Shown piece by piece: positions 2,449 to 54,807 of a stretch of 64,000 nucleotides of DNA. Where the stretch lies: positions 1 to 64,000 of IMG/VR virus record IMGVR_UViG_3300009527_000006; one strand, 5' to 3'. The notes under the pieces were generated by a model. The model was not told the DNA's origin and made no database searches. It worked only from the letters and a program-made list of their open reading frames with translations. Position 1 is the stretch's first letter, and each line of letters starts with the position of its first letter. This DNA is from a virus. The position numbers were made by a program, and so were the translations under genes.

Positions 2449-3474
2449 TTGAAGAAATTTGAATATAAACAATCATTAGAAATGTTCAAATCATTTGATG
2501 CTGATACGAGATTGGTAGTATTAACATCTGGAATTGCTATTATTGATGAAATTTATGACACATTAAATTTAGAATTGAAAAATGAATATGTTTCTCAAGG
2601 ACCGAATTTAACTGAAAACCAAGTAAATGATATTAGTAAAAATAGTAGTCTAAGAAAAAGATATGTTGAAAGACGGGATATTAGTTTTACGCAAATGGTA
2701 AATACTGGTAAATATGAATTTAATAATTTGGATTTAGAAGTAAAATCAATTCAAATTAAAATAGAAGAAGGAAGAAGTAAAGCACAGAAGATAGTAGATA
2801 GTTATTCTGGAGGAAATTTAAATTTAAGATATATGTGGTTAATAGAATTACCTGATATGTCTAAAATAGATGTGACTGGTGATTTTTTGTGCGCATATAA
2901 TGAACTTGCATCGTTGAAAGGTTGTCCTAGAAGTGTTGTTGGAAGTTTTCATTGTAGCAATAATCAATTATCAACATTAGAAGGTTCTCCTAGTAGAGTT
3001 GGAGGTGATTTTTATTGCAATTATAATAAATTAAAAACACTAGAAGGTGCTCCTAGTAGGGTTGGAGGTGATTTTGAGTGCAATTTTAATAATTTAATAA
3101 CATTAGAAGGTGCTCCTAGTAGTGTTGGAAGAGGTTTTTATTGTAATGATAATAAATTAACAACACTACTAGGTGCTCCTAGTAGTGTTGGAGGATTTTT
3201 TAATTGTAAGGTTAATAAATTAACAACACTACTAGGAGCACCTAGTAGTGTTGGAAGAAGTTTCTATTGCAATTATAATAAGCTAATAACATTAGAAGGT
3301 TCTCCTAGTAGTGTTGGAGGAAGTTTTGAGTGTGATACTAATTCTGATTTAATTTCATTAAAAGGTGCTCCGGCAAAAATAGGGGCAAGATTTCTTTACC
3401 CTGATAAATTTACAGAAGAAGACGCTGACACTGCAATGACAGAGCGGAGAAAGCAACTATCTATACAACAGTAG
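2449..3474 (+). CDS. Tandem-repeat (leucine-rich-like) protein
   Basis: A 341-residue protein with a helical N-terminal third and about eight near-identical 20-residue repeats from about residue 155 to 320, of the form F-x-C-x-x-N-x-L-x-x-L-x-G-x-P-x-x-V-G-G. Regular spacing of Leu, Asn and Cys implies a solenoid, as in leucine-rich repeats. The DNA repeats are also nearly identical 60-mers, so copy number may vary by recombination. The first in-frame start is TTG at 2449, with an ATG at 2482 as alternative; neither has a clear ribosome binding site. Likely a binding scaffold; the target is unknown. Confidence 0.65.
   Translation: MKKFEYKQSLEMFKSFDADTRLVVLTSGIAIIDEIYDTLNLELKNEYVSQGPNLTENQVNDISKNSSLRKRYVERRDISFTQMVNTGKYEFNNLDLEVKSIQIKIEEGRSKAQKIVDSYSGGNLNLRYMWLIELPDMSKIDVTGDFLCAYNELASLKGCPRSVVGSFHCSNNQLSTLEGSPSRVGGDFYCNYNKLKTLEGAPSRVGGDFECNFNNLITLEGAPSSVGRGFYCNDNKLTTLLGAPSSVGGFFNCKVNKLTTLLGAPSSVGRSFYCNYNKLITLEGSPSSVGGSFECDTNSDLISLKGAPAKIGARFLYPDKFTEEDADTAMTERRKQLSIQQ
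2930..3345 (+). repeat. Seven to eight tandem 60-bp coding repeats
   Basis: In-frame 60-nt units containing GGTGCTCCTAGTAGTGTTGG-like cores, differing by a few bases. They encode the solenoid of the 2449-3474 protein. Confidence 0.85.
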
Positions 3475-4689: not shown

Positions 4690-5370
4690 ATGCCAATTAT
4701 CAGAAAACTTATTGTTGAACATCCTTGCTATGATGTTGAACCGTTGATGGAAAGAAAAAATTTAGATCAAGAACCTAGATATTATTTCACTGGTCAATAT
4801 CTAATGCTATCCAGAAAAAATAAGAATAATAGAATTTATGAAGAAAGTGAAATGCTTCCTGCTATTGACCGATATATCGCAGATTATGTCAAGCACAATC
4901 GCGGTGGAGGAGAATGTAATCACTCATTAGAGCCCGAAATGAAACTTGATAGATTGGCCCACAAAATTGTAGAATTGAAAAGAGATACATCTGAACCAGA
5001 TTTTTATATAGGAAAATCTGAAATTCTCACAGAAAATCCTCCCGGAAAAATACTAGCCGGACTTATTAAGCACAACGTAAATTGGGGTCTTAGTTCTAAA
5101 TGTCTGGGCCAGATAGAAGAGTCTGAAAGAGGTAATCTTGTAAAATCTCCTATCATTCTGGGAGTAGATGCAGTATGGGACGCATCTGCAAATACTAAGT
5201 TTATTAACGGAATATATGAAGAGCGTGAATGGATAATTGGTGATGACCAGAAAGTATACGAAGCATTTCAAGGATTTTCCAAGGCTCATACAAATTACAT
5301 TTCCAAACATCGTTCAGAGGTCAATGCTCACATCATAGAGCAATTATCTAAATTCTTAAAATCACTGTAA
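4690..5370 (+). CDS. 21: Prohead core protease (T4 gp21 type)
   Basis: A 226-residue serine protease that in T4-like phages sits in the prohead core and cleaves scaffold and capsid proteins before packaging. Visible family features are NRIYEESEML near residue 47, GGGECNHSLEP with the candidate catalytic His78, LDRLAHKI, and GLSSKCLG with the candidate nucleophile Ser135 or Ser136. Length fits gp21 (about 212). Order along the strand is protease, (unknown), small core protein, scaffold, major capsid, as in T4, but interrupted by a minus-strand block. A late promoter lies directly upstream. Confidence 0.88.
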   Translation: MPIIRKLIVEHPCYDVEPLMERKNLDQEPRYYFTGQYLMLSRKNKNNRIYEESEMLPAIDRYIADYVKHNRGGGECNHSLEPEMKLDRLAHKIVELKRDTSEPDFYIGKSEILTENPPGKILAGLIKHNVNWGLSSKCLGQIEESERGNLVKSPIILGVDAVWDASANTKFINGIYEEREWIIGDDQKVYEAFQGFSKAHTNYISKHRSEVNAHIIEQLSKFLKSL

Positions 5371-5374
5371 CTTT

Positions 5375-5914
5375 ATGACTGCAAAATTTGACAAAACATT
5401 AAAGGAAATGTTTCCTGATATTATTGATATGATCCCTGTAGGAGACATAACTGTGACAAAAGAGTATCCAGAAGATACTGAAGAAGAACCTATTGCGGAA
5501 GATATTTCAGAAACAGAAATTGCTACAAAGATAATAGAAAAAACTAAAAAATTGAGAAAAAAGATAGGTCAAGAATCTTACCACTATGCTAAGCAAATTA
5601 TAGACCTTGCAGAAAAATTATTAGATATTCATCCTCAAATAGAAATAGTTCAATTAGAAGAGTCTGTCAAAGATGATATTCTGATAGCATACAAAAGACT
5701 CTCTAGAAAGGGTTCTAGCACAACCGTCACTATTCCAGAATTAGCAGTTGAAGTAGGAATTCCATTAGACGATCTTAAAAAAGAACTTTTAGAAATCAAT
5801 GACACTAATTATGGAGGTTTATATCTTGAACCTCATGATAAACCTAATAGATTGAGTGACGGAGAAAAGCACTTTTTGATTAAAAATATATACTATGGAG
5901 TAGGGAGTTTCTAA
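5375..5914 (+). CDS. Unknown late protein downstream of prohead protease
   Basis: A 179-residue protein starting 4 nt after the protease stop, so co-transcribed. The N-terminal 50 residues are acidic (EDTEEEPIAEDISETE), the centre is helical, and residues about 120-150 (VTIPELAVEVGIPLDDLKKELLE) read like a winged-helix or HTH unit. It could be a head-assembly accessory factor by position only. A strong terminator follows. Confidence 0.6.
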   Translation: MTAKFDKTLKEMFPDIIDMIPVGDITVTKEYPEDTEEEPIAEDISETEIATKIIEKTKKLRKKIGQESYHYAKQIIDLAEKLLDIHPQIEIVQLEESVKDDILIAYKRLSRKGSSTTVTIPELAVEVGIPLDDLKKELLEINDTNYGGLYLEPHDKPNRLSDGEKHFLIKNIYYGVGSF

Positions 5915-6855: not shown

Positions 6856-8187
6856 TTAGCTCGCGTCCTCCACATCTATAAAATCTGATTTCAATTTTGC
6901 AATACCTTCCATGACACGGAACGGAAAGCTCTTGTATTTGTATAGGTCAGGACGTAATCCATAGTTATCCACTCGAACTACTACGCCTTCACAAATATGA
7001 GATGGATCATTATAATCCTCACACAGATTTTTTTCATTTTCTGCAAGAAATACTGCCTGTTGAAAAAGAGCATCTTTATTTCCATCATACACAAAAGTAT
7101 CTACAAGCGTCTTCACCACAGGAATGTTTCTTTTATTACACCAATCTACCATTTGAGAATGGCTCAGGTCCATTTCCACGCCATCAGGATTAGTATAAGA
7201 GATGCGGTATACGCAAATGTTAAATTCATCCTGCATACACCCATACTTGTAAACAACTTTTTTACCATACTTCTGAACAAAAGCATCATCTTTCAATTTA
7301 GTAACATCATGCGTTCCCATAACAGGAGCACCATTGACGTATCCAACAATCTCAAGATAGATGGTCATATTTTTTTCCAGATAGGGTTTTAAAGTTTGTA
7401 AAATATCATAACGATACTTTTCCGAGCCATGAAAACCTGTTTTATTCTCACCATCAGAACCAAGAACGACTCTACGAGTTCCAACTACATACTCATAATC
7501 AGTAACTGATTTTTTAATTTGCCGTGTTTTTTTAATGTTCCTCTTTAGTGAAGGAACGTAAATTTTATCTACAACAGTTTCAACCACTTCTTTTGCAACT
7601 GGAGTAAAGGAATAACGACCAGAAGTTCCGTGATTCTTAGAAGTTATAGTTACTAAAGAACCTTTTGGAATACTATCAATATAGTAAGATAACTGTTCAG
7701 TATCAAGATGTTCATGGAACAATGGAGTAGAATTTTTTTTCCTAGAAGTATTAGAATTTCTAGCACCAGCAGTTTTAGCATTATAAAACTTATTACATAT
7801 TTGATGTTCATTCAGTTCATCAAAAGAATCACCGAATTTAAAAACAGATATGTCATATCCGGTATACGATAGACTGTCTAGAGACATAAAAAGACCCTCA
7901 CTCTTAGTTTTTAAGAATTTCTGAACTTTAAGTTTTCTATTATCTTCTAAATAACCTTTTGCGTTCACATCAGAATTATATTCTGAATGACGGTATAGGT
8001 TATTCATCTTAGCATATTCGTCAGATAACTGAATATCAGTTGCTTCGAAAAATACTCCCAAATCACCTACTTGTACATTTTTAGATACGATAACATTAAA
8101 TCCGTATACTACAGCAGACTGAACAAAATCTGCACCGTCTATGGGGATTATTTTATCAACCTTTCCTATTCTTGCTAAATGTTTCAT
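6856..8187 (-). CDS. RNA ligase of the DRB0094 (Rnl5-like) type
   Basis: A 443-residue ATP-dependent ligase. Residues 1-50 form the N-terminal domain typical of this family (ARIGKV...GADFVQSAVVYGFNVIV...GDLGVFFEATD). The nucleotidyl-transfer motif is SKNHGTSGR with Lys184 as the expected AMP-accepting residue. Later motifs include YLEIVGYV, EGVVVRVDN and KYKSF. The family seals nicked RNA or RNA/DNA hybrids; phages commonly use such enzymes to repair cleaved tRNA during host defence, which is inference here. A sigma70-like promoter precedes it and two small genes follow in the same operon. Confidence 0.85.
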   Translation of the reverse strand: MKHLARIGKVDKIIPIDGADFVQSAVVYGFNVIVSKNVQVGDLGVFFEATDIQLSDEYAKMNNLYRHSEYNSDVNAKGYLEDNRKLKVQKFLKTKSEGLFMSLDSLSYTGYDISVFKFGDSFDELNEHQICNKFYNAKTAGARNSNTSRKKNSTPLFHEHLDTEQLSYYIDSIPKGSLVTITSKNHGTSGRYSFTPVAKEVVETVVDKIYVPSLKRNIKKTRQIKKSVTDYEYVVGTRRVVLGSDGENKTGFHGSEKYRYDILQTLKPYLEKNMTIYLEIVGYVNGAPVMGTHDVTKLKDDAFVQKYGKKVVYKYGCMQDEFNICVYRISYTNPDGVEMDLSHSQMVDWCNKRNIPVVKTLVDTFVYDGNKDALFQQAVFLAENEKNLCEDYNDPSHICEGVVVRVDNYGLRPDLYKYKSFPFRVMEGIAKLKSDFIDVEDAS

Positions 8188-8193
8188 GTTGCT

Positions 8194-8221
8194 AATGTAT
8201 CTGTTGTTGTGGGTATGTCAA
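8194..8221 (-). promoter_or_regulatory. Sigma70-like promoter for the RNA ligase operon
   Basis: On the minus strand TTGACA (8216-8221) and TACATT (8194-8199) are separated by 16 nt, with the start codon 6 nt beyond. Confidence 0.5.
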
Positions 8222-8228
8222 GTAAAAT

Positions 8229-8537
8229 TTATTTTTTAGAGTAAACATCAAAAGTGGTCTTAATAGTTTCTAGTGAAGTGCTGCCTGTAATACGTTTAAC
8301 CTCGATGCCATCTTTATAAAAGATAAAAATAGGAACGGACCTTATACCAAGTTCCTGCGCTAATTCAGGTTCTTCATCTACATCTAATGTTTTTATGGGA
8401 TAATTAGTTTCATCCCATCCTACCATATTTTTTGCCATAGCCTTACAAGGCCCGCACCAAGGAGCCTCTACCTTAATAATTAAGGAACTGTTTTCTGTTA
8501 ATGTCTGGTTATATGTGATTGTAGTAACTTTTTCCAT
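8229..8537 (-). CDS. Thioredoxin
   Basis: A 102-residue thioredoxin with the redox-active WCGPC motif at residues 27-31 and the cis-Pro region (GIRSVPIFIFY) near residue 70. It would reduce disulfides in the cytoplasm, for example to supply ribonucleotide reductase. The start at 8537 is chosen because the family begins about 20-25 residues before the active site; a longer frame runs 11 codons upstream. It sits upstream of the RNA ligase on the same strand. Confidence 0.9.
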   Translation of the reverse strand: MEKVTTITYNQTLTENSSLIIKVEAPWCGPCKAMAKNMVGWDETNYPIKTLDVDEEPELAQELGIRSVPIFIFYKDGIEVKRITGSTSLETIKTTFDVYSKK

Positions 8538-19642: not shown

Positions 19643-19671
19643 TTTATCATACTTAATTGGTAATTATATAT

Positions 19672-21840
19672 ATGAGTAAAAAGAAGAAAGATGTTTATAT
19701 TAAAAACAATAAAGATTTGCCAGTAGATGTTACTGGTGAATACAATGTAGAAATGATGAGTGAGATGCAGAAATGTAAAGACGATATTTTCTATTTTGCA
19801 GAAAAATATTTTACCATTGTTCATCCAGACAGAGGCAAAGAAATCATGCAACTATATGCACCTCAAAAAAGAGCAATAGATAAGATAGTTAAAAATCGCA
19901 GAACTATTATTTGTGCTTCTCGTCAAATAGGCAAACGACTATGTTTGAATACACCTGTTCCGACTCCTGATGGATGGAGCACTATGGGAGAATTAAGAGA
20001 TGGTGATACTATATTTGATTGGAACGGAGCACCTACTAAAATAGTGAAAGCGCATGATATAGTAGAAAATACGGATGCTTATGAGATAACCTTTAGTAAT
20101 GGAGATAAAATTAAAGCGGATGCAGAACATGAATGGTTTACACAGCACAAATCTGAAACTAAGGCAAAATATTCAGGATCTGTGAAGACTACAAAGGAAA
20201 TATATGAGTCTCTGTATTATGGAATAAAAAATAAACGGCCTGCTCATAGAATCCCTCTACATAAACCAGAAAAATCTAAAAAAAGAAACAAATACGTCTA
20301 CATAAAAAATATAGAAAAAATAGACAGTGTTCCTATGAGATGCATTACTGTAGATAATGATGATCAGATGTATTTAGTAGGAAAAACATGCATACCTACG
20401 CATAATACATCACTGATGACAGTAGTGTGTTTGTGGTATACTCTTTTTAATAAAAATTACAATATTGCTATTCTGGCCAACCAAGAAAAAATGGCTCTTG
20501 AAATTCTATCTAGAATAAAAACTGCATATAAAAATCTTCCCACGTGGTTGAAATCTGGCGTCCCTGTTTGGTCACAAGGTCAAGTAACTTTCTCAAATGA
20601 AAGTAATATATTTGCATCTACTACATCAGAAAACTCTATACGTGGACAGACGACAAATCTAATATTTCTGGACGAGTTTGCATTCGTTCCCCCAGAAATT
20701 GCAGAATCGTTTTATACTGCGGTATCCCCTGCCCTCTCCGCTTCAAAAACCTCAAAAATAGTCATTGTATCTACACCAAATGGAGTCTCTAACAAGTACT
20801 ATGAAATATTCCAAAATGCTGAACGAGGTGATAAAGGTTGGGCATATGAAAAAATGTATTGGTGGGAAATACCGGATCGTGATGAAGCATGGAAAGAGGA
20901 TCAATTGAAATTATTGAATTATGACCGTGATAAATGGGATCAAGAATATGATTTAGTATTTCTAACTTCAGGGTCTACTGCATTGAATAAAAATCTAATG
21001 GATAGATTAGAAAAACAATGCTATATTCCTGATGTAACTTTTGATGACGGAGATTATCTTGTTTACGACACTCCTAAAAAAGGGCATGTATATTCTATAG
21101 GGGTAGACGTGTCTGAAGGAATAGGCCAAGACTATTCAGTTGCGCAAATACTAGACGTTACTGATCCTAAAAACATATCTCAAGTAGGAGTATATTCTAC
21201 AAACAGTTCTCTCCCTTATGTATTTGCAGAGAGGCTTTATCAAATAGCATGTTCATGGGGTAAACCCTTTTTATGCATAGAAAGAAATGGTCCGGGAGGT
21301 CAAGTAATTGATGCATTGAAAAATGTTTATGAGTATGACAATATCGTAACTGCGTCAAAGGTAAATGATTCTTCTGGAAGATATAATAATCAGCTAGGAA
21401 TTGTCAATCATCAGAACACTAAACTTGCAGGAAATAATAATATGAGATACTATCTAGAAACTAAAGAGTGTCTTGAATTATATGATGGCAAAACTGTCGC
21501 TGAATTTAGGACTTATGTAAGAAAGGCGAATCGTTCTTGGGGCGCTCTAAAAGGCAAAACTGATGACCATGTTATGGCTCTTATATGGGGAACATTTATT
21601 TTAGAAAAAACTGTTGCTGAAAAATATTTAGAAATACTTGATATTGATGAAAATGGTAGAGTGGAATCTATTAAAGATCCTATGCAATTTGAAAAAGATA
21701 CTCTTATTGAAAAAATCAAAAGTAATCCTAATTTTCGTATAAAAAATTCCAATTTTCCTACTGCGTTTGTTCAAAGAGGAAATGTTTTTTCTACAGTTGA
21801 TATTCCTACTAATAATGGAAGTATAAAATTTATACTATAA
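19672..21840 (+). CDS. 17: Large terminase subunit (T4 gp17 type) with intein
   Basis: The DNA-packaging motor. The precursor is 722 residues; removing a 157-residue intein leaves about 565 (T4: 610). The N-terminal ATPase has a Walker A (SRQIGK joined after splicing to TSLM) and Walker B LIFLDEFAF (Asp334, Glu335). The C-terminal nuclease has GVDVSEGIGQDYS with the first catalytic Asp (about 479) and a late DDHVMALIWG. The ATG at 19672 is preferred to an earlier in-frame ATG at 19657 because gp17-like proteins begin with a basic stretch such as MSKKKKD. Without splicing, Walker A would be destroyed. Confidence 0.93.
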   Translation: MSKKKKDVYIKNNKDLPVDVTGEYNVEMMSEMQKCKDDIFYFAEKYFTIVHPDRGKEIMQLYAPQKRAIDKIVKNRRTIICASRQIGKRLCLNTPVPTPDGWSTMGELRDGDTIFDWNGAPTKIVKAHDIVENTDAYEITFSNGDKIKADAEHEWFTQHKSETKAKYSGSVKTTKEIYESLYYGIKNKRPAHRIPLHKPEKSKKRNKYVYIKNIEKIDSVPMRCITVDNDDQMYLVGKTCIPTHNTSLMTVVCLWYTLFNKNYNIAILANQEKMALEILSRIKTAYKNLPTWLKSGVPVWSQGQVTFSNESNIFASTTSENSIRGQTTNLIFLDEFAFVPPEIAESFYTAVSPALSASKTSKIVIVSTPNGVSNKYYEIFQNAERGDKGWAYEKMYWWEIPDRDEAWKEDQLKLLNYDRDKWDQEYDLVFLTSGSTALNKNLMDRLEKQCYIPDVTFDDGDYLVYDTPKKGHVYSIGVDVSEGIGQDYSVAQILDVTDPKNISQVGVYSTNSSLPYVFAERLYQIACSWGKPFLCIERNGPGGQVIDALKNVYEYDNIVTASKVNDSSGRYNNQLGIVNHQNTKLAGNNNMRYYLETKECLELYDGKTVAEFRTYVRKANRSWGALKGKTDDHVMALIWGTFILEKTVAEKYLEILDIDENGRVESIKDPMQFEKDTLIEKIKSNPNFRIKNSNFPTAFVQRGNVFSTVDIPTNNGSIKFIL
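19936..20406 (+). other. Class 3 mini-intein in the terminase Walker A loop
   Basis: A 157-residue in-frame insertion between GK and T of the Walker A motif. Block A starts RLCLNTPVPTPDGW, so residue 1 is Arg rather than Cys or Ser. The class 3 signature is complete: Trp67 after the block B His65 (AEHEW), Cys136 in block F (MRCITVD), and Thr155 before the terminal His156-Asn157; the +1 extein residue is Thr. There is no homing endonuclease domain. Cutting exactly here restores SRQIGKTSLM, matching T4-like terminases. Confidence 0.9.
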
Positions 21841-46931: not shown

Positions 46932-46998
46932 ATAATTCAGAAGTCAAGCGCTAAATTCAATCATTTAGATATTTTGAAGACACTACTAAATCACAAGA

Positions 46999-47087
46999 GG
47001 CGAACAAAACGGATGCAGACAACGCTCTATAAGTTGTTTGTCACATTCATAGTCTTTTATTCGCGTGTCTGATCCGAAGCGTTCGGG
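46999..47087 (+). repeat. attC-like site 1
   Basis: R'' GGCGAAC (46999-47005) and R' GTTCGGG (47081-47087). Inner stem: CGGAT[G]CAGACA[A]CGC (47010-47024) pairs with GCGTGTCTGATCCG (47063-47076); bracketed G and A are unpaired. Central region is nearly identical to sites 3 and 6. Confidence 0.85.
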
Positions 47088-47113
47088 CAATACGCATCCA
47101 CACAAAATCACGC

Positions 47114-47554
47114 ATGTATAATAGACCGTCTAATTCTGAAGTTGCGGAAATTACTGGATACAATCTTCCTATAGAAGAAATCTCAGAATTTCCCACAGCT
47201 AAACAGCAACAAGAAGGAGGTTATATTTTGAAGTATATTGGCCGCATCTCAGATACTTGTGATACCTTCTTGAAAACTGCACATGGTAAGGTAGTTGCTA
47301 TAATATTGCTTATCCATGGAATCATCGGATTTGCTAGAGATGCATTTGATGGTGCAACATACATCTATAATGCATCTGCTCCTATGCTTGAAAGGATTGA
47401 GACTTTTGTATTTTCTCATAAGAACCAAGAAGTCTCTCCCGAATACCTAGTATTGATCCCAAAAGAAACGCACCTGACACTGCCCGTAAAAGATTGGGCT
47501 GATTTTCCGGCAGGAACCCAATTTGCGCCAGCCAGTAGCATAGATTACACATAG
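47114..47554 (+). CDS. Cassette 1 plus-strand gene, single-helix membrane protein
   Basis: A 146-residue protein starting 33 nt after R' of site 1. One predicted transmembrane helix (VVAIILLIHGIIGFA, about residues 61-75) with polar flanks and a C-terminal beta-like region. The leader is A/C-rich without a ribosome-binding site. It overlaps the minus-strand gene of the same cassette by 173 nt, so one of the two may be shorter than drawn. No family recognised. Confidence 0.55.
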   Translation: MYNRPSNSEVAEITGYNLPIEEISEFPTAKQQQEGGYILKYIGRISDTCDTFLKTAHGKVVAIILLIHGIIGFARDAFDGATYIYNASAPMLERIETFVFSHKNQEVSPEYLVLIPKETHLTLPVKDWADFPAGTQFAPASSIDYT

Positions 47555-47633
47555 CCAACGATCCAAAATATATAAATGCAAATATTTCACAACAAACCCA
47601 TACTTTATTCAAATAATTATATTTATTAGACAT
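47382..47633 (-). CDS. Cassette 1 minus-strand gene, small membrane protein
   Basis: An 83-residue protein with a long hydrophobic stretch (ending FAFIYFGSLAMCNLCYWLA) and a second one (LLRAVSGAFLLGSILGI). I keep it despite the overlap because an exact TATAAATA late promoter lies 6 nt before its ATG, and its start is 37 nt from the next attC, the same position as minus-strand genes in cassettes 2, 4 and 5. Confidence 0.5.
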   Translation of the reverse strand: MSNKYNYLNKVWVCCEIFAFIYFGSLAMCNLCYWLAQIGFLPENQPNLLRAVSGAFLLGSILGIRERLLGSYEKIQKSQSFQA

Positions 47634-47639
47634 TTTACC

Positions 47640-47647
47640 TATTTATA
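47640..47647 (-). promoter_or_regulatory. Late promoter inside cassette 1
   Basis: Exact TATAAATA on the minus strand between the gene start at 47633 and attC site 2. Confidence 0.7.
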
Positions 47648-47669
47648 AAGACTTTAGACTAAAACAAGA

Positions 47670-47759
47670 CCCGAACAAAGAAACTGGAGACAACAGCTCA
47701 GCATAGTTATTCTCCTATATTAGTTCTGTGTTCGCTGTGTCTCAGTTTAGACGTTCGCC
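47670..47759 (+). repeat. attC-like site 2
   Basis: R'' CCCGAAC (47670-47676), R' GTTCGCC (47753-47759). Inner stem AAACT[G]GAGACA[A]CAGC pairs with GCTGTGTCTCAGTTT; same two unpaired bases as site 1 although the paired bases differ, so the stem covaries. Nearly identical to site 5. Confidence 0.85.
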
Positions 47760-47783
47760 TAACAACACACAGCCTCTACTACA

Positions 47784-48056
47784 ATGTATAAAACTCAGCC
47801 TAAATATCGGGCCATCATTCGTTTCTCCTTGGATAAGGATGAGAGTTCAAAGTTTCGCAACTCTGTTATTAGAAAACTTAGAAAAGCTAAATTCACCAAC
47901 ACAAATAAGACTGGTTCTTGGGAGACTCCATCCGCAGATTTATCTATTATTCAGTCATTAGTCTGCACCGTTATGAACGAACTAGGTAAAGTAACGAATG
48001 ACGACGGAAAGCCCGTAACATTGGACCATATGTGGATGTGCATAGATAAAGTTTAA
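47784..48056 (+). CDS. Cassette 2 plus-strand gene, small basic protein
   Basis: A 90-residue protein starting 24 nt after R' of site 2, leader A/C-rich. Basic first half (SSKFRNSVIRKLRKAKFT) and a helical acidic end. Its stop overlaps the stop of the convergent gene by 4 nt. No family recognised; a nucleic-acid-binding role is possible from charge only. Confidence 0.65.
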   Translation: MYKTQPKYRAIIRFSLDKDESSKFRNSVIRKLRKAKFTNTNKTGSWETPSADLSIIQSLVCTVMNELGKVTNDDGKPVTLDHMWMCIDKV

Positions 48057-48223
48057 TCTTCTTCGTTCCACCTAGGGTCATCATCTGACCATTCATTCCA
48101 TCCAGATTCGATTTCGTCTGAGTCTGAATTGATAACTATTTTTGTTTTAGATTCAGTATGACACCCACAGTTGCCACATACGCCGCTAATAACGACTTCT
48201 ATAGGTTGAGAATTATTTTTCAT
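48053..48223 (-). CDS. Cassette 2 minus-strand gene, Cys-cluster microprotein
   Basis: A 56-residue protein. SGVCGNCGCHTESK near residues 13-26 has three Cys and a His, enough for a metal knot, followed by an acidic, Trp-rich tail (SGWNEWSDDDPRWNEED). ATAAATA lies 7 nt before the ATG, and the start is 39 nt from attC site 3. Convergent with, and 4-nt overlapping, the plus-strand gene. Confidence 0.65.
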   Translation of the reverse strand: MKNNSQPIEVVISGVCGNCGCHTESKTKIVINSDSDEIESGWNEWSDDDPRWNEED

Positions 48224-48230
48224 AATCAGC

Positions 48231-48237
48231 TATTTAT
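48231..48237 (-). promoter_or_regulatory. Late promoter inside cassette 2
   Basis: ATAAATA on the minus strand, 7 nt before the start at 48223. Confidence 0.6.
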
Positions 48238-48261
48238 TGGCAGCTCTTGCTATAAACAAGA

Positions 48262-48350
48262 GGCGAACAAAACGGATGCAGACAACGCTCTATAAGTTTT
48301 ATGTCACATTCAGAGTTTAGTATTCGCGTGTCTGATCCGAGACGTTCGTC
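48262..48350 (+). repeat. attC-like site 3
   Basis: R'' GGCGAAC (48262-48268), R' GTTCGTC (48344-48350); inner stem identical to site 1 with unpaired G and A. The end of the methyltransferase reading frame runs into this site. Confidence 0.85.
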
Positions 48351-48937
48351 TTATGAAATGCCACCCAGTGAGTCTGCGCTTTCTTGCCGCTACGGTGGCC
48401 GTAGAGCGGGCGTTCTGGCGTGAGTGCCAGCACTTCGCGGAGCGGGATTTCAGCCTCGCACCATTTGAAGATCATCGTTCCATTCACTTTCAGGACACGG
48501 AAGCATTCAGCGAATCCCGCCCGCAGGTCGTCGCGCCATGTCGCATCCAGAAGCCCGAAGTCGAAGGCGATGCGTCCCGTTGCCCCGGCTCCTTTATGGA
48601 AGTGCGGCGGATCGAATACCACATGCCAGAACGACTCATCAGGGAACGGCATGTTTCGGAAGTCCACCACCATATCAGGCGCGACGGTTTTCGGGGTGCG
48701 CCCGATGGTTCCCGGCGTTCCCACGTCGATGATTCGCGTGCCTTGGCGTTTGTCCACATACAGGGCGCGGTCATCCTGTTTATCGAACCAGAACATTCTG
48801 GTTGAGCAGCACGCATCCAATACCGGAGGCAAAGACGAACAAGTCGCTGCATGCAACCCGCTTTCTGCGTGCTGTTGGCGCGTTAATGTGAAGAGGTCAT
48901 CCATAGGTGTATCGGTGTATTGTGTCAGCGGGTGCAT
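48317..48937 (-). CDS. Cassette 3 gene, SAM-dependent methyltransferase (G+C-rich)
   Basis: A 206-residue class I methyltransferase. The SAM-binding region is PPVLDACCSTRMFWFDK (residues 37-53), VDFRNMPFPDESFWHVVFDPPHF gives the catalytic-type DPPHF at 109-113, and FRVLKVNGTMIFKW and GHRSGKKAQTHWVAFHK follow. Relatives occur in enterobacterial prophages and plasmids and probably methylate nucleic acid. It runs opposite to the cassette orientation, starts inside site 4 and ends inside site 3; ATG at 48904 is an alternative start. Its base composition is far richer in G+C than anything around it, a clear sign of transfer. Confidence 0.8.
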   Translation of the reverse strand: MHPLTQYTDTPMDDLFTLTRQQHAESGLHAATCSSLPPVLDACCSTRMFWFDKQDDRALYVDKRQGTRIIDVGTPGTIGRTPKTVAPDMVVDFRNMPFPDESFWHVVFDPPHFHKGAGATGRIAFDFGLLDATWRDDLRAGFAECFRVLKVNGTMIFKWCEAEIPLREVLALTPERPLYGHRSGKKAQTHWVAFHKTNVSDQTREY

Positions 48938-48953
48938 GAGCTAGGCGTTCGCC
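48834..48953 (+). repeat. attC-like site 4 (divergent)
   Basis: R'' GACGAAC (48834-48840) matches R' GTTCGTC of site 3 at the other end of its cassette; its own R' is GTTCGCC (48947-48953). Inner stem GCT[G]CATGCA[A]CCCGCT pairs with AGCGGGTGCATGAGC. A different sequence and a longer central region (120 bp site), yet the same unpaired G and A six pairs apart. Confidence 0.85.
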
Positions 48954-48962
48954 TAAAAACCA

Positions 48963-49217
48963 ATGCACTCATCACAAACTAATTCGCAGATGATAATCGC
49001 GCACATGCTAGCCAATGATAACGGAGCCATTTTTCATTTTGAGGACTATAGATTCAATGTTCGTCCTGAAGATCGAGTCACTTCCAGCAATTGGCCTAGT
49101 GGTATAACATTGCACATTAGACTTTCTAGCACAGGGCTGAGCGCAGCTTCTTACGAGAACGAGACAGTGCTCGGTGAATATGTGGATGAAAGAGGAACTC
49201 CCATTTTGCCTTATTAG
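48963..49217 (+). CDS. Cassette 4 plus-strand gene, unknown
   Basis: An 84-residue protein starting 9 nt after R' of site 4. Strand-rich (GAIFHFEDYRFNVRPED, GITLHIRLSSTG), with acidic C terminus. Its stop overlaps the convergent stop by 4 nt. No family recognised. Confidence 0.6.
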   Translation: MHSSQTNSQMIIAHMLANDNGAIFHFEDYRFNVRPEDRVTSSNWPSGITLHIRLSSTGLSAASYENETVLGEYVDERGTPILPY

Positions 49218-49453
49218 GAATTATTACTTGGATCATTCGGAATTGCATGGCCGAATCTCAGCACTTCACCATTGTCATATAGATAGGCCATTCCACGAAT
49301 TCCAAAAGGACCATTATACTTACCTTTCTCATTCTGTATTTTTATGTTCTCGTGCATAGTCCATCTTCGCCAGATTCCAATAGCTTCATCATACGGAAGT
49401 GCCTCTGGATCTGGGTATTTGGTTAAGTCTATTGGGTTGTCTAAATTTAACAT
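49214..49453 (-). CDS. Cassette 4 minus-strand gene, unknown
   Basis: A 79-residue protein with DPEALPYDEAIGIWRRWTMH and FGIRGMAYLYDNGEVLRFG, consistent with a small beta-sheet domain. The ATG at 49453 is preferred to an in-frame TTG two codons earlier. ATAAGTA, a weaker late-type element, lies 9 nt upstream; the start is 41 nt from attC site 5. Confidence 0.6.
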   Translation of the reverse strand: MLNLDNPIDLTKYPDPEALPYDEAIGIWRRWTMHENIKIQNEKGKYNGPFGIRGMAYLYDNGEVLRFGHAIPNDPSNNS

Positions 49454-49462
49454 ATTCAAAGC

Positions 49463-49469
49463 TACTTAT
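49463..49469 (-). promoter_or_regulatory. Late-type promoter variant inside cassette 4
   Basis: ATAAGTA on the minus strand, 9 nt before the start at 49453. One mismatch to ATAAATA. Confidence 0.4.
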
Positions 49470-49493
49470 TCGTAGTCAAATGCTAAAACAAGA

Positions 49494-49583
49494 GGCGAAC
49501 AAAGAAACTGGAGACAACAGCTCAGCATAGCTATTCTCCTATATTAGTTCTGTGTTCGCTGTGTCTCAGTTTAGATGTTCGCC
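49494..49583 (+). repeat. attC-like site 5
   Basis: R'' GGCGAAC (49494-49500), R' GTTCGCC (49577-49583). Inner stem as site 2, with the same unpaired G and A; the whole site differs from site 2 at only a few bases. Confidence 0.85.
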
Positions 49584-49598
49584 CAACCTCACCACACC

Positions 49599-49784
49599 AT
49601 GTCTATTATAAAGAAACCTAGTTCGTGCGTATTTTGCAGATCTGCACTGATTAAAGGTCCGATTAAGAGAGATCGTAATTTAAATGAAACTATTGAAATG
49701 AAGAGTGTCGTTTATATTTGTGAGCAATGTAATTTTGTTCACGAATTTAATATTCATACTACTAAAAAATCTAAGATGAAGTAG
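49599..49784 (+). CDS. Cassette 5 plus-strand gene, zinc-ribbon protein
   Basis: A 61-residue protein with two Cys pairs, SSCVFCRS near residue 10 and YICEQCNFVH near residue 42, a classic small zinc ribbon with basic ends. The ATG at 49599 lies 15 nt after R' of site 5; an earlier in-frame ATG lies inside the site. It could bind nucleic acid or a protein partner. Convergent overlap with the next gene is 14 nt. Confidence 0.65.
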   Translation: MSIIKKPSSCVFCRSALIKGPIKRDRNLNETIEMKSVVYICEQCNFVHEFNIHTTKKSKMK

Positions 49785-49935
49785 TAGACACGAAACATGC
49801 AAGCCCATCACATTGAGCATTCCACATTTCATCCAGAATTCTATCATTATTTTCCTGTTCTTCTTTGGAAAGTCTCATCCAATGACACTGCTCCACTTCT
49901 AACCATTCACGTATCTTTGCTTTTATCCATTGCAT
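49771..49935 (-). CDS. Cassette 5 minus-strand gene, small acidic helical protein
   Basis: A 54-residue protein (MQWIKAKIREWLEVEQCHW at the N terminus), amphipathic helix rich in Trp and Glu, then LDEMWNAQCDGLACF. ATAAGTA lies 9 nt upstream and the start is 40 nt from attC site 6. No family recognised. Confidence 0.6.
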   Translation of the reverse strand: MQWIKAKIREWLEVEQCHWMRLSKEEQENNDRILDEMWNAQCDGLACFVSTTSS

Positions 49936-49944
49936 AGTAGTCAA

Positions 49945-49951
49945 TACTTAT
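49945..49951 (-). promoter_or_regulatory. Late-type promoter variant inside cassette 5
   Basis: ATAAGTA on the minus strand, 9 nt before the start at 49935. Confidence 0.4.
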
Positions 49952-49974
49952 GAAGCTAATAAACAGAAACAAGA

Positions 49975-50063
49975 GGCGAACAAAACGGATGCAGACAACG
50001 CTCTATAAGTTTTATGTCACATTCATAATTTTATATTCGCGTGTCTGATCCGAGACGTTCGGG
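49975..50063 (+). repeat. attC-like site 6
   Basis: R'' GGCGAAC (49975-49981), R' GTTCGGG (50057-50063); inner stem identical to sites 1 and 3. The R' triplet GGG is matched by CCC of site 7, more than 4.3 kb away, the two ends of one enlarged cassette. Confidence 0.85.
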
Positions 50064-50086: not shown

Positions 50087-50257
50087 ATGAATGAATCTAC
50101 GTTAGTTGATTGCGCTAAATGGTTATATGAAAAGCAGCAAGAGAACCTAAAAGCCGGAAAGAATCTACTTTGGCAGCCACATATAATAACCGTTCTTTTA
50201 AACTTACAAAAATCTAAAGTCATACTTTTAAGATATAAACTCTCGATTTTTTGTTAA
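50087..50257 (+). pseudogene. Cassette 6 gene, probably interrupted by the IS607-like element
   Basis: Begins 23 nt after R' of site 6 with the A/C-rich leader typical of the array (CACCACAATG). Residues 1-45 read as a normal helical protein (STLVDCAKWLYEKQQENLKA); the frame then runs into the end of tnpB and stops after 56 codons. The simplest view is that a cassette gene was cut by insertion near 50,215-50,225; its 3' part may be the fragment at 54156-54350. Confidence 0.5.
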
Positions 50258-51446
50258 ATTCCTGCTTCACAGACGGGCTAACCAAAGTCGTTTCCGACAA
50301 TGGTGAACTCCCATCTCCACAGGCTTGAATTCCCGAAGAACTTTCGGTATAAATTTGTTTCAGATTCAAACTCGCATTTAAATCTCTATCTATTTTCATA
50401 TCACACATTTTACATTCAAATACTCGGTCTGTCAACTTCAAATCTGAATTTTTCCATCCGCAACATGAACATAATTTAGAACTGGCGTAGAAAGTATCTG
50501 CGAAGACAACTTTTCTATTATTCCATTTCGCTTTATATTCAATTTGGCGACGAAATTCATAAAGTCCTACGTCACTGATAGCCTGAGCCAAACAGTGATT
50601 TTTCAACATATTGCTTACTTTCAAATCTTCCAACACAATTACATTGTTTTTCTGTATTATGTTAGAAGTGATTCTATGTAAGCAATCTTTACGAATATTT
50701 GATATGTGATAATGTAATTTTGCTAACTTTTGTTTTGCTTTTCCATAATTTTTACTTCCTTTTTTCTTTCTTGATAATTGTTTTTGTTTGCGTTTTAGTC
50801 TCTTGAGATTTTTCTTTAATGCTTTTGGATTTTCATAAGTTGTCCCATCTGAGCAAGTAGCTAAAGTTTTAATACCTAAATCAATTCCTACTACCTCATT
50901 CTTGGCGTTAGAATGCTCTCTGTCAGGTGTCTCTACTTGAACTGATACAAACCACTTACCCGCACGTTTCGAGACTGTAGCAGACAGTATTTTACAATCT
51001 GTTGGGATGTAATCTTTCTCGGATAATTTGAGTTTGTCGATTCGTGGTAGCTTAATGTAATCAGATTCAACTGAAATCGCGCCGTCTAGTCTGAAGGATT
51101 GCTTTTCGTTTTTCTTAGATTTAAATTTTGGAAATCCTTTCTTACCTTTAACTTTCTTTTTACAACGAGTGAAGAAATTTTGAAATGCTTTATCACAATC
51201 TCTTAACGCATTTTGTGGAGAAGTCTTGCTTGAATTATACATCCAAGGAACATCTGTCTGTTTTAGCTTGTTTAATTCTCTATGAATCTCAATAGCATTT
51301 TGAATTTTCTCTTTCTTATCAAATTGTTCTTTCTTTTTAGCTAATGCCCAATTATATGCCCATCTAGCGCAACCAATATGCTGTAATAACAAGGTTTGTT
51401 GCTTGTTATTTACATCTAGCTGAACTTTATAGGCGCGGAGAATCAT
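50220..51446 (-). CDS. tnpB: TnpB RNA-guided nuclease-type transposon protein
   Basis: A 408-residue TnpB. The start at 51446 (MILRAYKVQLD) matches the usual family start; the codons upstream belong to the methyltransferase overlap. RuvC residues are intact: Asp189 (GIDLGIKTLAT), Glu273 (VLEDLKV) and Asp355 (DRDLNASLNL). A zinc ribbon (CSCCGWKN ... FECKMC) lies between the last two. TnpB proteins cut DNA with a guide RNA made from the 3' end of their gene, so such an RNA is expected across roughly 50,200-50,400. Its ATG overlaps the methyltransferase stop (ATGA). Confidence 0.9.
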   Translation of the reverse strand: MILRAYKVQLDVNNKQQTLLLQHIGCARWAYNWALAKKKEQFDKKEKIQNAIEIHRELNKLKQTDVPWMYNSSKTSPQNALRDCDKAFQNFFTRCKKKVKGKKGFPKFKSKKNEKQSFRLDGAISVESDYIKLPRIDKLKLSEKDYIPTDCKILSATVSKRAGKWFVSVQVETPDREHSNAKNEVVGIDLGIKTLATCSDGTTYENPKALKKNLKRLKRKQKQLSRKKKGSKNYGKAKQKLAKLHYHISNIRKDCLHRITSNIIQKNNVIVLEDLKVSNMLKNHCLAQAISDVGLYEFRRQIEYKAKWNNRKVVFADTFYASSKLCSCCGWKNSDLKLTDRVFECKMCDMKIDRDLNASLNLKQIYTESSSGIQACGDGSSPLSETTLVSPSVKQEFNKKSRVYILKV

Positions 51447-52308
51447 TTTAATCTTTCTAAACAAATATCATAATACTCTTTTTCTTTTTCGATGCCGATA
51501 AACTGACGATTGAGATTTTTGGCGGCAACCAGAGTTGTTCCCGAACCAGCAAAAGGATCGAACACCAAATCCTCTTTATTTGAGATAGACTTCACCAAGT
51601 CTTCCATCATATTCAACGGTTTTTCACATGGATGTTTGTCTTTTCTTTGCGAGACTATTTCATATTCAATTACATCTTCAAATGAAGATAGCGATAACGA
51701 ATCAAATTTTCGTTTGGATAATTTAATACCTAAATCTCCTCTAATTTGGGAAGAAATTTTGGAGATGGAAAGCATCTACCACATTCCCAATTTGATACTT
51801 GACCACCATTATTAACGTTTCCATAAGCACCCAATATTTCAGTAAGCTCTTTTACCGATACCCCCTTAGAAATGCGGGCATTCTTAATGTCATTTGGATA
51901 AGAATCTTGTGAAAAATAAATTATTCTTTCTGATGCTGGATATGGTCGTCTAAGGGAATTTTTATTACACTTATTTTTCCAACCCTCACTCCCCTTATTT
52001 GGAAAAGTTTTCTTCCACACAATTTCAGATTGGAAATTGAAATATTGATTTATCAGGACGGCTAAAAATGGAGCCAATGATGGCTTACAAAAAACGTAAC
52101 CACTACAAGTATTTTTCATCTTCGGTTTAAGAATTTTGAAAAAATAATCAAACCATTTTAAAAATTCAGTATCGTTATCATGTTCATTGTCCCAAGTGTG
52201 CTTTTTAACATTGTGATAAGGTGGATCGGTGACAAGGATATCCACGCTTCCATCTGGAATGTCCTTCATCAATTCTAAACAGTCGCCATGCCAAATTTCT
52301 TGTTTCAT
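51443..52308 (-). pseudogene. DNA methyltransferase (beta class), broken by a one-base frameshift
   Basis: The N-terminal frame (52308-51730) has GDCLELMKDIPDGSVDILV then TDPPYHN (residues 27-33), a target-recognition region and an HTH-like insert (KELTEILGAYGNVNN). The C-terminal frame (to 51443) has HPCEKP and FDPFAGSGTTLVAAKNL. Motif IV before motif I marks the beta class of N6-adenine or N4-cytosine enzymes. The frames join at LEEI/LGIKL, near 51,731-51,740, where one extra T in a T3 run restores a continuous protein. Either a real mutation or a homopolymer error. Confidence 0.8.
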
Positions 52309-53336
52309 TCCATCGCCTCCTTTTCTTTCTTTTTACGATTCTGTGAGCTAATCATACCCAATCCTTCTCTAATTAGATACAGGCGACCAGTCGAAGTTTT
52401 TAACTCTTTTGCTACGCCTCTCCAAGTTTGATGTTTATCAAACAAATCGTGCAGTTGTTTTACTGTAATATCTGAACGCTTTTTCCGTAAAATTTGCTGA
52501 GATAGACACTCTAAATATAATTCATACTTTCTATCCAAATACACTTTAGCGTTTGAGTATATTGGTCTTAATATGTTTTGAACTAACTCGACCCCCGCCG
52601 AAGATATGCAGCAAGTTTCTGAATCTCCCTCTCCATATTTTGATAGGATTTTTGCGCGACATTTGCTATACGAAAGAATATACTCTTGAAATTTCTCAAT
52701 AACAAGCCTATTTCCAACAAGATTAATTGTCCACACCCAAGATTTTTTATATTTGGGTTCAAGCGTTTTAGAAATGCAGCCATCACCGTCAAATATGCCT
52801 CGCCAAAAATGACAGTGTAAATCCTTTGGAATTAAATTTAACGGAGGAATAAAGCTAAAAGATTTTCTCGGTAAAATACCAAATTTAGCCAAATCATTGC
52901 ATATTTTTCTGTTACCAATTACAATTCGACACGACTCAAATATTTTACTATTATCACCCCCTTCAAAAGAGGGCGAACTTCTACATATTTTAATTGGATG
53001 CGCCGAACGGCAAAATTTCTTAAATTTTTCTAAGTGCAACAAATCTGACTTTTTTAAACCTATATTCAATCCTCCATAATCGGTTACGTTGCCGTCGGCG
53101 GCAATGAATCCAAGCCAATAAGCCTTATCTTCTGTGTCAATTTTTTCAAAAATAGAATCGTCAATAGTATATTTAGAGTTATTTTTAATTTTGATACCCC
53201 TTTTTTTGGCTTCTCTGGTGCAGCATTCGCTACTTAATCCGTAAACAGCCGCCGCCCTTTGTGCAGAATCCCCGTTTACATATAGATTAATCATTCCGTC
53301 CTTTTCTTCTTGTGTAATAGTGCGTCTCATATACAT
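52305..53336 (-). CDS. LAGLIDADG homing endonuclease
   Basis: A 343-residue protein with two LAGLIDADG helices: WLGFIAADG (residues 74-82) and FWRGIFDGDG (177-186), each ending in the catalytic Asp. The N-terminal 50 residues (RRTITQEEKDGMINLYVNG) and C-terminal 50 (VKQLHDLFDKHQTWRGVAKELK) look like HTH DNA-binding units. It would make a staggered cut at a long target. It overlaps the methyltransferase start by 4 nt and lies 16 nt after the recombinase stop. ATG at codon 3 is an alternative start. Confidence 0.88.
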   Translation of the reverse strand: MYMRRTITQEEKDGMINLYVNGDSAQRAAAVYGLSSECCTREAKKRGIKIKNNSKYTIDDSIFEKIDTEDKAYWLGFIAADGNVTDYGGLNIGLKKSDLLHLEKFKKFCRSAHPIKICRSSPSFEGGDNSKIFESCRIVIGNRKICNDLAKFGILPRKSFSFIPPLNLIPKDLHCHFWRGIFDGDGCISKTLEPKYKKSWVWTINLVGNRLVIEKFQEYILSYSKCRAKILSKYGEGDSETCCISSAGVELVQNILRPIYSNAKVYLDRKYELYLECLSQQILRKKRSDITVKQLHDLFDKHQTWRGVAKELKTSTGRLYLIREGLGMISSQNRKKKEKEAME

Positions 53337-53352
53337 ATATTTACACTAAAAA

Positions 53353-53913
53353 TCACTCTTTTTCACAAAAATCTGATAAAACTTCATCATCGGGATAGAT
53401 TTCTGTAGTCACCTCTTCCACCTTTTCAATTCTAACTCCATAGGAATTAAAATAAGACAAAAGATAATTAAAACAAAATCTTGATAATCTATCTTTATGC
53501 TCAATTAAGACTACATCAATTTCTTTCTTTTCTACTAACTCAAAAAGTTTCTGCAATTTCTTGCGATTGTCGTTCATTCCTGAACCAACTTCATCAAAAA
53601 CAGCAACAATAGAATAACCACGCTTCAATGCCTCTGTAGTCATTCTGCCGACTTGTCTTTCTAAATCACCTTTAGTCTTCTGTTCATGTGAACTAACGCG
53701 ACAATAGATAGCCACACGCTTACCATCTGTTACTTTAACAGGTTCTACATAGATTCCCGCCAATTTCTCAATATCGGCTCTGTAATAGCGTCTATGACCA
53801 CCTTTTGTATGGAATGGCGTTAATTTGCCTTCTCGCTCCCAATTTCTAAGAGTTTCGTCGGAAACGCCTAAAATGGACGCAGCATCACTAATTGATAGAA
53901 TCTTTTTATCCAT
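53353..53913 (-). CDS. tnpA: IS607-type serine recombinase (TnpA) with MerR HTH
   Basis: A 186-residue protein. Residues 5-50 form a MerR-like helix-turn-helix (SISDAASILGVSDETLRNWE, HRRYYRAD). The resolvase domain has AIYCRVSSHEQ with catalytic Ser74 (or 75), VFDEVGSGMNDNRKKLQKL and IEHKDRLSRF. It should cut and rejoin circular transposon DNA. The C terminus ends shortly after the RLSRF block and seems to lack the final helix of many relatives, next to the inserted endonuclease gene, so activity is not certain. Confidence 0.85.
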   Translation of the reverse strand: MDKKILSISDAASILGVSDETLRNWEREGKLTPFHTKGGHRRYYRADIEKLAGIYVEPVKVTDGKRVAIYCRVSSHEQKTKGDLERQVGRMTTEALKRGYSIVAVFDEVGSGMNDNRKKLQKLFELVEKKEIDVVLIEHKDRLSRFCFNYLLSYFNSYGVRIEKVEEVTTEIYPDDEVLSDFCEKE

Positions 53914-54155: not shown

Positions 54156-54350
54156 ATTATCGGGCAACTGTTGTCAACCCTCGGAAAGTTGTGGTTACTA
54201 TTTGTTTCCTGTTTTGCGATATTATCCACTGCTCTGATCACCGAGTTTATAAAACAAGATGGGTATAAGTTGTTTAAGTCCAGCCTAAATAATGAACACA
54301 CAAAAGCATCGGAACCACCCCCATCACAAACAACAAAACACATAAAATAA
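54156..54350 (+). pseudogene. Orphan 3' fragment of a cassette 6 membrane protein
   Basis: An open plus-strand frame with no ATG, encoding 64 residues: a hydrophobic helix (LWLLFVSCFAILSTALITEF) followed by a basic then Pro-rich tail ending TTKHIK. It ends 59 nt before R'' of site 7, where plus-strand cassette genes normally end. It may be the 3' half of the gene interrupted at about 50,220. Two antisense frames overlap it and seem less likely. Confidence 0.4.
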
Positions 54351-54408
54351 TCAACCATCCTAATGCCATGAAGAGGCATTCTACAAAAGCCTTAAACTCA
54401 CCATCAAA

Positions 54409-54501
54409 CCCGAACAAAACGGATGCAGGCAACACCTCTGGGCTGTCTGTCGTATTATTCATAGTATTTTCGTTCGGTGTGCCTGATCCGAGACGTTCGC
54501 C
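54409..54501 (+). repeat. attC-like site 7
   Basis: R'' CCCGAAC (54409-54415), R' GTTCGCC (54495-54501). Inner stem CGGAT[G]CAGGCA[A]CAC pairs with GTGTGCCTGATCCG: compared with site 1, an A-to-G change on one arm is matched by T-to-C on the other, keeping the unpaired G and A. Confidence 0.85.
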
Positions 54502-54658: not shown

Positions 54659-54692
54659 ACTCTTCATTTGAGATAAAGTGTGTTATTTATAT

Positions 54693-54788
54693 TTTTGAGG
54701 CTCTATAAGTTTTATGTCACATTCATAGCTTAGAACTCACTATGTCTCAGCGTAAACTTACCATTCATGTCTGCGCTAGGCGTTTGCC
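54693..54788 (+). repeat. Decayed attC-like remnant (site 8)
   Basis: GCTCTATAAGTTTTATGTCA matches the centre of sites 1, 3 and 6; CTATGTCTCAGCGT resembles the right stem of sites 2 and 5; GCGCTAGGCGTTTGCC resembles the end of site 4. No R'' box or clean inner stem is left. It marks the right edge of the array. Confidence 0.55.
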
Positions 54789-54807
54789 TTAACTGCATAA
54801 TGTTCAA

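Follow-up and report, generated by a model that had tools for sequence, protein, structure and literature searches.

In the usual picture, an integron gene cassette consists of a gene and, after it, an attC site that is for the most part non-coding. Passages of Qi et al., 2023 (PMC9892861) describe phage attC arrays with and without an integrase (CALINs), five cassette methyltransferases including Methyltransf_11 matches, and recombination of five of six tested sites by IntI1. In ORF-11 of attI1, as described in part of PMC8876359, a short frame crosses the crossover, is given its stop by the inserted cassette and aids the translation of the next gene. In the open-access literature we found no description of attC acting as a translated start module for genes that lack a stop.

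Here we analyzed the first 64,000 bases (hereafter the window) of a 92,025-base IMG/VR phage record, in which an earlier note had described a foreign methyltransferase cassette in an attC array. The array is like those in the passages of PMC9892861 in being phage-borne and carrying a methyltransferase cassette. In contrast, the junctions given there read G|TTRRRY, unlike GTTCG in the window, and those passages describe no translated attC leader, stopless cassettes, fixed junction phase or Verrucomicrobiota sites. As in ORF-11 according to the same part of PMC8876359, the stop is supplied by the adjoining cassette; however, ORF-11 is an 11-aa leader peptide in attI, whereas here a whole enzyme gene starts in attC and ends at the crossover codon. 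The enzyme belongs to the same family as the phage DNA methyltransferases of phrog_954, which outside these cassettes begin directly with the catalytic domain and bring a stop of their own. The same GTTC-type sites are found in Verrucomicrobiota integron arrays (L087 and L146-L153). Our reading of the sequence, to which we assign a probability of about 70%, is that a T4-like phage holds an integron-type, inverted and stopless cassette from a Verrucomicrobiota/phage pool, with an attC-encoded leader, an integrase acting in trans and an anti-restriction product.

An array of attC-type sites in a T4-like phage record

The record encodes a T4-type head protein (phrog_138) and a T4-like polymerase ~31% identical to those of T4-like phages of Methylophilales, Pelagibacter and cyanobacteria; MAG and IMG/VR labels were accepted as given throughout. 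A terminase-like gene with an intein-like insertion was recognized by eye at 19657-21840. On the plus strand of the window, a strict finder detected seven attC-like sites, six within 46,997-50,063 and the seventh at 54,407-54,501:

46997..47087, plus strand, AAC at 47003: attC-type site 1 (type A), strict finder
47668..47759, plus strand, AAC at 47674: attC-type site 2 (type B), strict finder
48260..48350, plus strand, AAC at 48266: attC-type site 3 (type A), giving the methyltransferase frame its last codons and stop
48831..48953, plus strand, AAC at 48838: attC-type site 4, finder score 17, overlapping the first 35 methyltransferase codons
49492..49583, plus strand, AAC at 49498: attC-type site 5 (type B), strict finder
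49973..50063, plus strand, AAC at 49979: attC-type site 6 (type A), strict finder
54407..54501, plus strand, AAC at 54413: attC-type site 7 (type A), nearest to the Verrucomicrobiota form

The sites share one anatomy: AAC, a spacer, ~5 bp, an unpaired g, 5 bp, an unpaired a and at least 4 bp, then a 36-64-nt loop, the complementary arm, a second spacer and, at the 3′ end, GTTCG. Both unpaired bases are on the 5′ arm, g and then a, 5 bp apart, and each site has outer R arms. The R″/R′ and L″/L′ arms of an attC site are therefore all present, together with unpaired L″-arm bases, unpaired spacers and the crossover GTT, but the R′ box reads GTTCGNN in 7/7 sites and does not match GTTRRRY. The first unpaired base of a classical attC is c, whereas in the window sites it is g on the plus strand. 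Since the GTTC box also occurs beside integron integrases in two virus records (G599 and G011, see below), we regard the array sites as a variant form rather than the classical one.

The strict finder gave no match in 969 kb of dinucleotide-shuffled sequence. One further match in the window (7953-8001), with a 3-nt loop and GTTATTC, was not counted as a site, and the finder, which degenerate sites escape, detected no attC-type site in the 28 kb of the record beyond the window. In the type-A sites 95.6% of cells are paired, but covariation is weak, as a single pair has changes on both sides. An Rfam scan of the array had no match, and promoter and terminator scans were at chance level. In a loose scan for attC sites, the strongest false matches were the DNA repeats of 2449-3474, which encode one protein with repeated 'GAPSSVGG.F.C..N.L' units. 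A decayed copy of the array repeat, with type-A loop sequence and no intact arms, lies at 54690-54797.

The 92-kb record had no match to PF00589 or TIGR02249 and no tyrosine integrase. With at least two attC sites (seven) and no integrase in 92 kb of a record that may be a fragment, the array has the composition of a CALIN; intI, as expected of a complete integron, was not found beside the array in the record.

The type-A half site CGAACAANNCGGATGCAGRCAAC occurs at 19 places in 6/288 genomes of the phylum to which a Verrucomicrobia MAG belongs, and its reversed pattern in none of those 288. It was found in 0/289 genomes of the phylum of Edwardsiella, which was the sole control phylum, and 6/288 is itself a small number. 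Whole type-A sites align over their full length with sites in Verrucomicrobiota genomes, and window site 7 shares part of the loop as well. No exact 23-mer of the array was found in IMG/VR, and a looser half-site pattern was present in 14 viral contigs. By sequence, the main site type of the array matches Verrucomicrobiota integron attCs. Verrucomicrobiota are the putative host of this T4-like phage.

Cassette 3 carries a reversed methyltransferase gene

The cassettes of the array and their genes are as follows:

47114..47554, plus strand: cassette 1 gene, usual polarity, starting 30 nt past site 1
47784..48056, plus strand: cassette 2 gene, usual polarity, with a convergent second ORF at 48053-48223 (minus strand)
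48345..48947, no strand assigned: cassette 3, 603 bp, between the G^TT crossovers of sites 3 and 4
48317..48937, minus strand: gene for a SAM-dependent methyltransferase, 206 aa, motif DPPHF, phrog_954 E 7.7e-61
48963..49217, plus strand: cassette 4 gene, usual polarity, with a convergent second ORF at 49214-49459 (minus strand)
49599..49784, plus strand: cassette 5 gene, usual polarity, with a convergent second ORF at 49771-49944 (minus strand)
54274..54462, minus strand: reversed ORF, 62 aa, with its start codon inside site 7 and overlapping a stop (ATGA)

Cassette 3 is bounded by crossover GTTs at 48344-48346 and 48947-48949. The earlier note had placed it at 48317-48953; the cassette is real, but the G^TT crossovers set its bounds at 48345-48947, and the array has one more site, at 54413. 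The note was right that the cassette is much richer in G+C than the window: 57.2% (0.572) vs 33.2% (0.332), the highest value among 1244 other 598-bp windows being 0.46. Likewise, GC3 of its gene is 0.657, vs 0.25-0.41 in 13 other genes measured.

As the note had also stated, the methyltransferase frame starts and ends inside two attC sites, with its ATG (48937) 9 nt inside site 4 and its stop (48317) inside site 3. Residues 1-35 are site 4 sequence, and the tail after HKTN, VSDQTREY and the stop, is site 3 sequence. The junction of the cassette reads AAC GCC TAG CTC ATG. The note had the cassette inserted against the array; the gene is indeed opposed to the attC orientation, but the attC itself is not inverted.

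Cassettes 1, 2, 4 and 5 each contain two convergent small ORFs, the ends of which overlap by a few bases in cassettes 2, 4 and 5. Because these cassettes combine a gene of usual polarity with a convergent ORF, the inverted arrangement is not the norm for this phage. The ORF at 54274..54462 is possibly a second gene of the inverted kind.

The predicted structure of the methyltransferase has a class I methyltransferase fold over residues 34-199, and this fold and the profile match (E 7.7e-61) together place the protein in phrog_954. The pLDDT of the model is mostly ~90 in the core and <50 at residues 12-33 and 202-204; the leader and the tail are thus predicted to be disordered. The match to Pfam Methyltransf_11 was below the cut-off, and no NCBIfam match was obtained.

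The same cassette occurs in other phages

The nearest protein relatives are encoded by two high-G+C phage contigs, L007 (93% identity) and L008 (94%), of which the former has a terminase-like gene and the latter terminase and portal genes. None of the methyltransferase matches in 233 phage records and 32 plasmids reaches 60% identity, and those in enterobacterial genomes are 43-48% identical; the proposed likeness to the methyltransferases of enterobacterial prophages and plasmids is therefore not borne out. In DNA alignments the window, L007 and L008 are alike through ...CATAAGACGAAC and unrelated beyond it, and this point is the crossover (the AAC of site 3). The cassette is thus found elsewhere with crossover boundaries. 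Single insertions into gene 3′ ends, considered for L007-L009, were ruled out for L007 and L008, both of which are arrays by the strict finder.

Over a 500-bp core, DNA identity is 91.0% between the window and L007, 92.4% between the window and L008 and 93.2% between L007 and L008. The differences fall almost entirely on third codon positions (41/45, 33/38 and 31/34, respectively), and therefore the methyltransferase gene has been kept functional. As the G+C content of the core is nearly the same in the window, L007 and L008 (58.0, 58.4 and 59.4%), the window copy is neither ameliorated nor an outlier. Copies with 91-92% DNA identity, exact crossover ends and a core of 58-59% G+C support the foreign origin of the cassette. 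The earlier note would have given up this origin if the same gene with the same flanks were spread throughout related phages with ameliorated composition; such a distribution was not seen, and no close relative of the window phage useful for comparison emerged from scans with its gp32-like and polymerase genes.

Site 4, which had been called the only divergent attC, is unlike the other window sites in sequence but has the same anatomy, including the bulged g and a, and its site family is also present in L007, L008 and a third contig, L174. In L007 and L008 its stem is retained with different bases, and its loop is 31 nt, as compared with 64 nt in the window.

These comparisons bear on the alternative that the repeats are not attC but another mobile or structural repeat, and that the methyltransferase moved by homologous recombination between repeats. 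The R′ box departing from GTTRRRY and the window record having no integrase would both agree with it. However, the flanking sites are unrelated in sequence between the phages, and yet the identity stops at the crossover base; moreover, the same anatomy stands beside integron integrases in G599 and G011. We consider this alternative very improbable. Because anatomy, exact boundaries and the neighbouring integrases in relatives agree, although the GTTCG R′ box does not fit, we take cassette 3 to be an integron gene cassette of variant form.

Two virus records have integron integrases beside such sites and reversed genes

G599 is a phage record with a terminase (E 6e-112), a portal and tail fibres. 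It contains six sites of the same anatomy with reversed genes, including a methylase and Mom (PF25680, E 5.8e-24, at 1089-1778 of its locus L176), and downstream of them an integron integrase that scores 281 bits against TIGR02249 (cut-off 265). In G011, an integron integrase above the TIGR02249 cut-off lies just downstream of the first cassette gene, a reversed methyltransferase gene whose TAA directly abuts the intI ATG. The viral status of G011 rests on IMG/VR and on a Mu Gam-like protein, the one PHROG match among its 10 long ORFs. In two integrase scans, TIGR02249 matched at E ≤1e-10 in 6/31 distinct virus records, above the cut-off in G011, G599, G608 and G610 and below it in G609 and G611.

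attC sequences as putative N-terminal leaders of different genes

We compared the starts and ends of 32 proteins, picked from ~100 methyltransferase loci for readable frames and spread. Family members outside these cassettes begin at VLDACC and end near FIK, whereas cassette members have a leader of 25-40 residues and end with K-x-N followed by a variable tail. The N of K-x-N is the AAC of the crossover.

A search with the methyltransferase of the Verrucomicrobiota array L087 yielded eight contigs that matched over residues 1-30 or 1-36 only. The bodies that follow the shared leader, MTARP...GQSLGAMPCS, are a DPPHI methyltransferase, Dam, N6_N4 methylases and a 93-aa protein: the same attC stands in frame before Dam (PF05869) in L171, before N6_N4 methylases in L174 and L176, and before the 93-aa protein in L175. 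By eye, L172 is like L171, and L177 like L174 and L176; L173 and L178 are near copies among the eight. Similarly, a different Dam in L174 follows the leader of the site 4 family (MDAD...AFHA.PCS in L007 and L008).

Reversed frames cross nearly all junctions in one phase

With the strict finder, 7/7 family genes that start inside a GTTC-type site are opposed to the attC: those of the window, L007, L008, L009 and L026 and two in L087, which represent several phages and a bacterium. The earlier note had taken the reversed orientation as a sign of recent capture, but reversal is evidently common to this set. Its second argument for recent capture, the missing late promoter, fails as well, since the window contains no more copies of TATAAATA than expected (8 vs 12.5). 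L015, a contig of 32% G+C with a GTTAGGC site read by eye, has the usual polarity, and L014, with a GTTA box, is reversed; there the box itself gives a TAA stop to the crossing gene. The Verrucomicrobia MAG locus L087 has three reversed methyltransferase genes of two families (2392-2970, 4926-5555 and 7807-8445), but most of its other cassette genes have the usual polarity.

A reversed frame of 60 codons or more runs through 27 of the 43 distinct GTTC-type sites. AAC is read in phase (phase 0) in 26/27 of these frames, among which are several families of methylases as well as other genes; the exception is L175. The binomial probability, if phases were equal and independent, is 7e-12, a value that overstates certainty because of chance long ORFs in G+C-rich DNA and because the cassettes are related and not independent. 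Duplicates of contigs or of longer loci were left out of this count, and L121, L130 and L131 were dropped with no other copy present; L121 has one GTTC site and no reversed gene through it. The first phase-0 stop of an upstream gene lies between an ATGA overlap and 6 nt before the ATG in 18/21 sites with a reversed ATG frame, the other three having no such contact, as compared with 3/21 and 1/21 in the other two phases. When sites were collapsed by leader start, the contact was seen in 15/18, vs 3 and 1; L185, L189, L192 and L193 were also dropped as copies from the stop-start count. The lengths of the cassettes are not all multiples of 3, as expected because each gene has its own start.

Backward genes are known in integron cassettes, and cassette 3 might be an ordinary cassette of this kind, in which tight packing has made attC and frame overlap by accident and the start codon actually used is past the attC. 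Indeed, family members outside such cassettes start at VLDACC and the leader is predicted to be disordered. The actual start codons may be situated past the leader. An accident of packing would not, however, readily explain phase 0 in 26/27 frames and stop-start contact in 18/21 sites, nor the same leader in frame before unrelated bodies. In addition, the loop of site 4 differs by 33 nt between the window and L007/L008, and therefore the frame is kept. We judge a packing accident unlikely and favour translation of the attC as a leader.

A putative coupled operon of DNA modification genes

On the reading that we prefer, the T4-like phage carries cassette 3 in an attC array with no integrase within 92 kb, and the cassette would have been drawn from a pool common to Verrucomicrobiota and phages with the same sites. 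Along the gene, a stop for the upstream gene would come just past the crossover, followed by the start codon in the L′ arm; the attC would be translated as a disordered N-terminal leader, and the folded methyltransferase would follow. The gene would then run stopless into the next crossover and end at its Asn codon (AAC), where the neighbouring site would give a tail and a stop. With a start codon and a stop for the upstream gene in each cassette, any two such cassettes placed side by side may form a translationally coupled operon. An integron integrase provided in trans, by the host or a co-infecting phage, would move the cassettes.

The product most likely modifies phage DNA and would blunt host restriction, as suggested by its association with Dam, N6/N4 methylases and Mom. 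Alternatively, the cassette may be as described but its enzyme may act on RNA or protein. The best structural match has Z 11.9 (132 residues, 3.5 A), the top matches include the tRNA/rRNA methyltransferases Trm11 and RsmC, and a PDB sequence search gave no meaningful match and hence no solved close relative; the predicted fold itself does not separate DNA from RNA as the substrate. On the other hand, the PHROG label, which is an annotation, is DNA methyltransferase, and neighbouring cassettes in relatives encode Dam, N6_N4 methylases and Mom. An RNA or protein substrate thus appears the less likely option, and we prefer DNA.

More broadly, it seems fairly probable that phages with Verrucomicrobiota-type sites harbor an inverted integron, characterized by a translated attC start module, stopless genes, a fixed AAC phase, stop-start contact and genes directed towards intI, in which shuffling would generate coupled DNA-modification operons (methylases, Dam and Mom) with no dedicated cassette promoter. 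If this is true, attC would be coding and would at the same time serve as the standard joint that links genes. This would account for the expression of shuffled cassettes inside a phage operon and offer phages a route to trade restriction-evasion genes with host integrons. The design predicts leader peptides, variable C-terminal tails and phase-0 junctions, and it provides a simple signature for finding more such cassettes.

An IS607-like pair, apparently in the last cassette

An IS607-like pair is found at 50220-53913, seemingly within the last cassette of the array. It consists of a TnpB-like ORF (50220-51464, by eye) and a MerR/serine-recombinase TnpA-like ORF (53353-53913, phrog_6620), between which lie genes for a DNA methylase (51730-52308) and an endonuclease (52305-53336, phrog_4645). 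At 51443-52308, an N6/N4 methylase gene adjoining the endonuclease gene is seemingly split into overlapping minus-strand frames (51730-52308 and 51443-51775).
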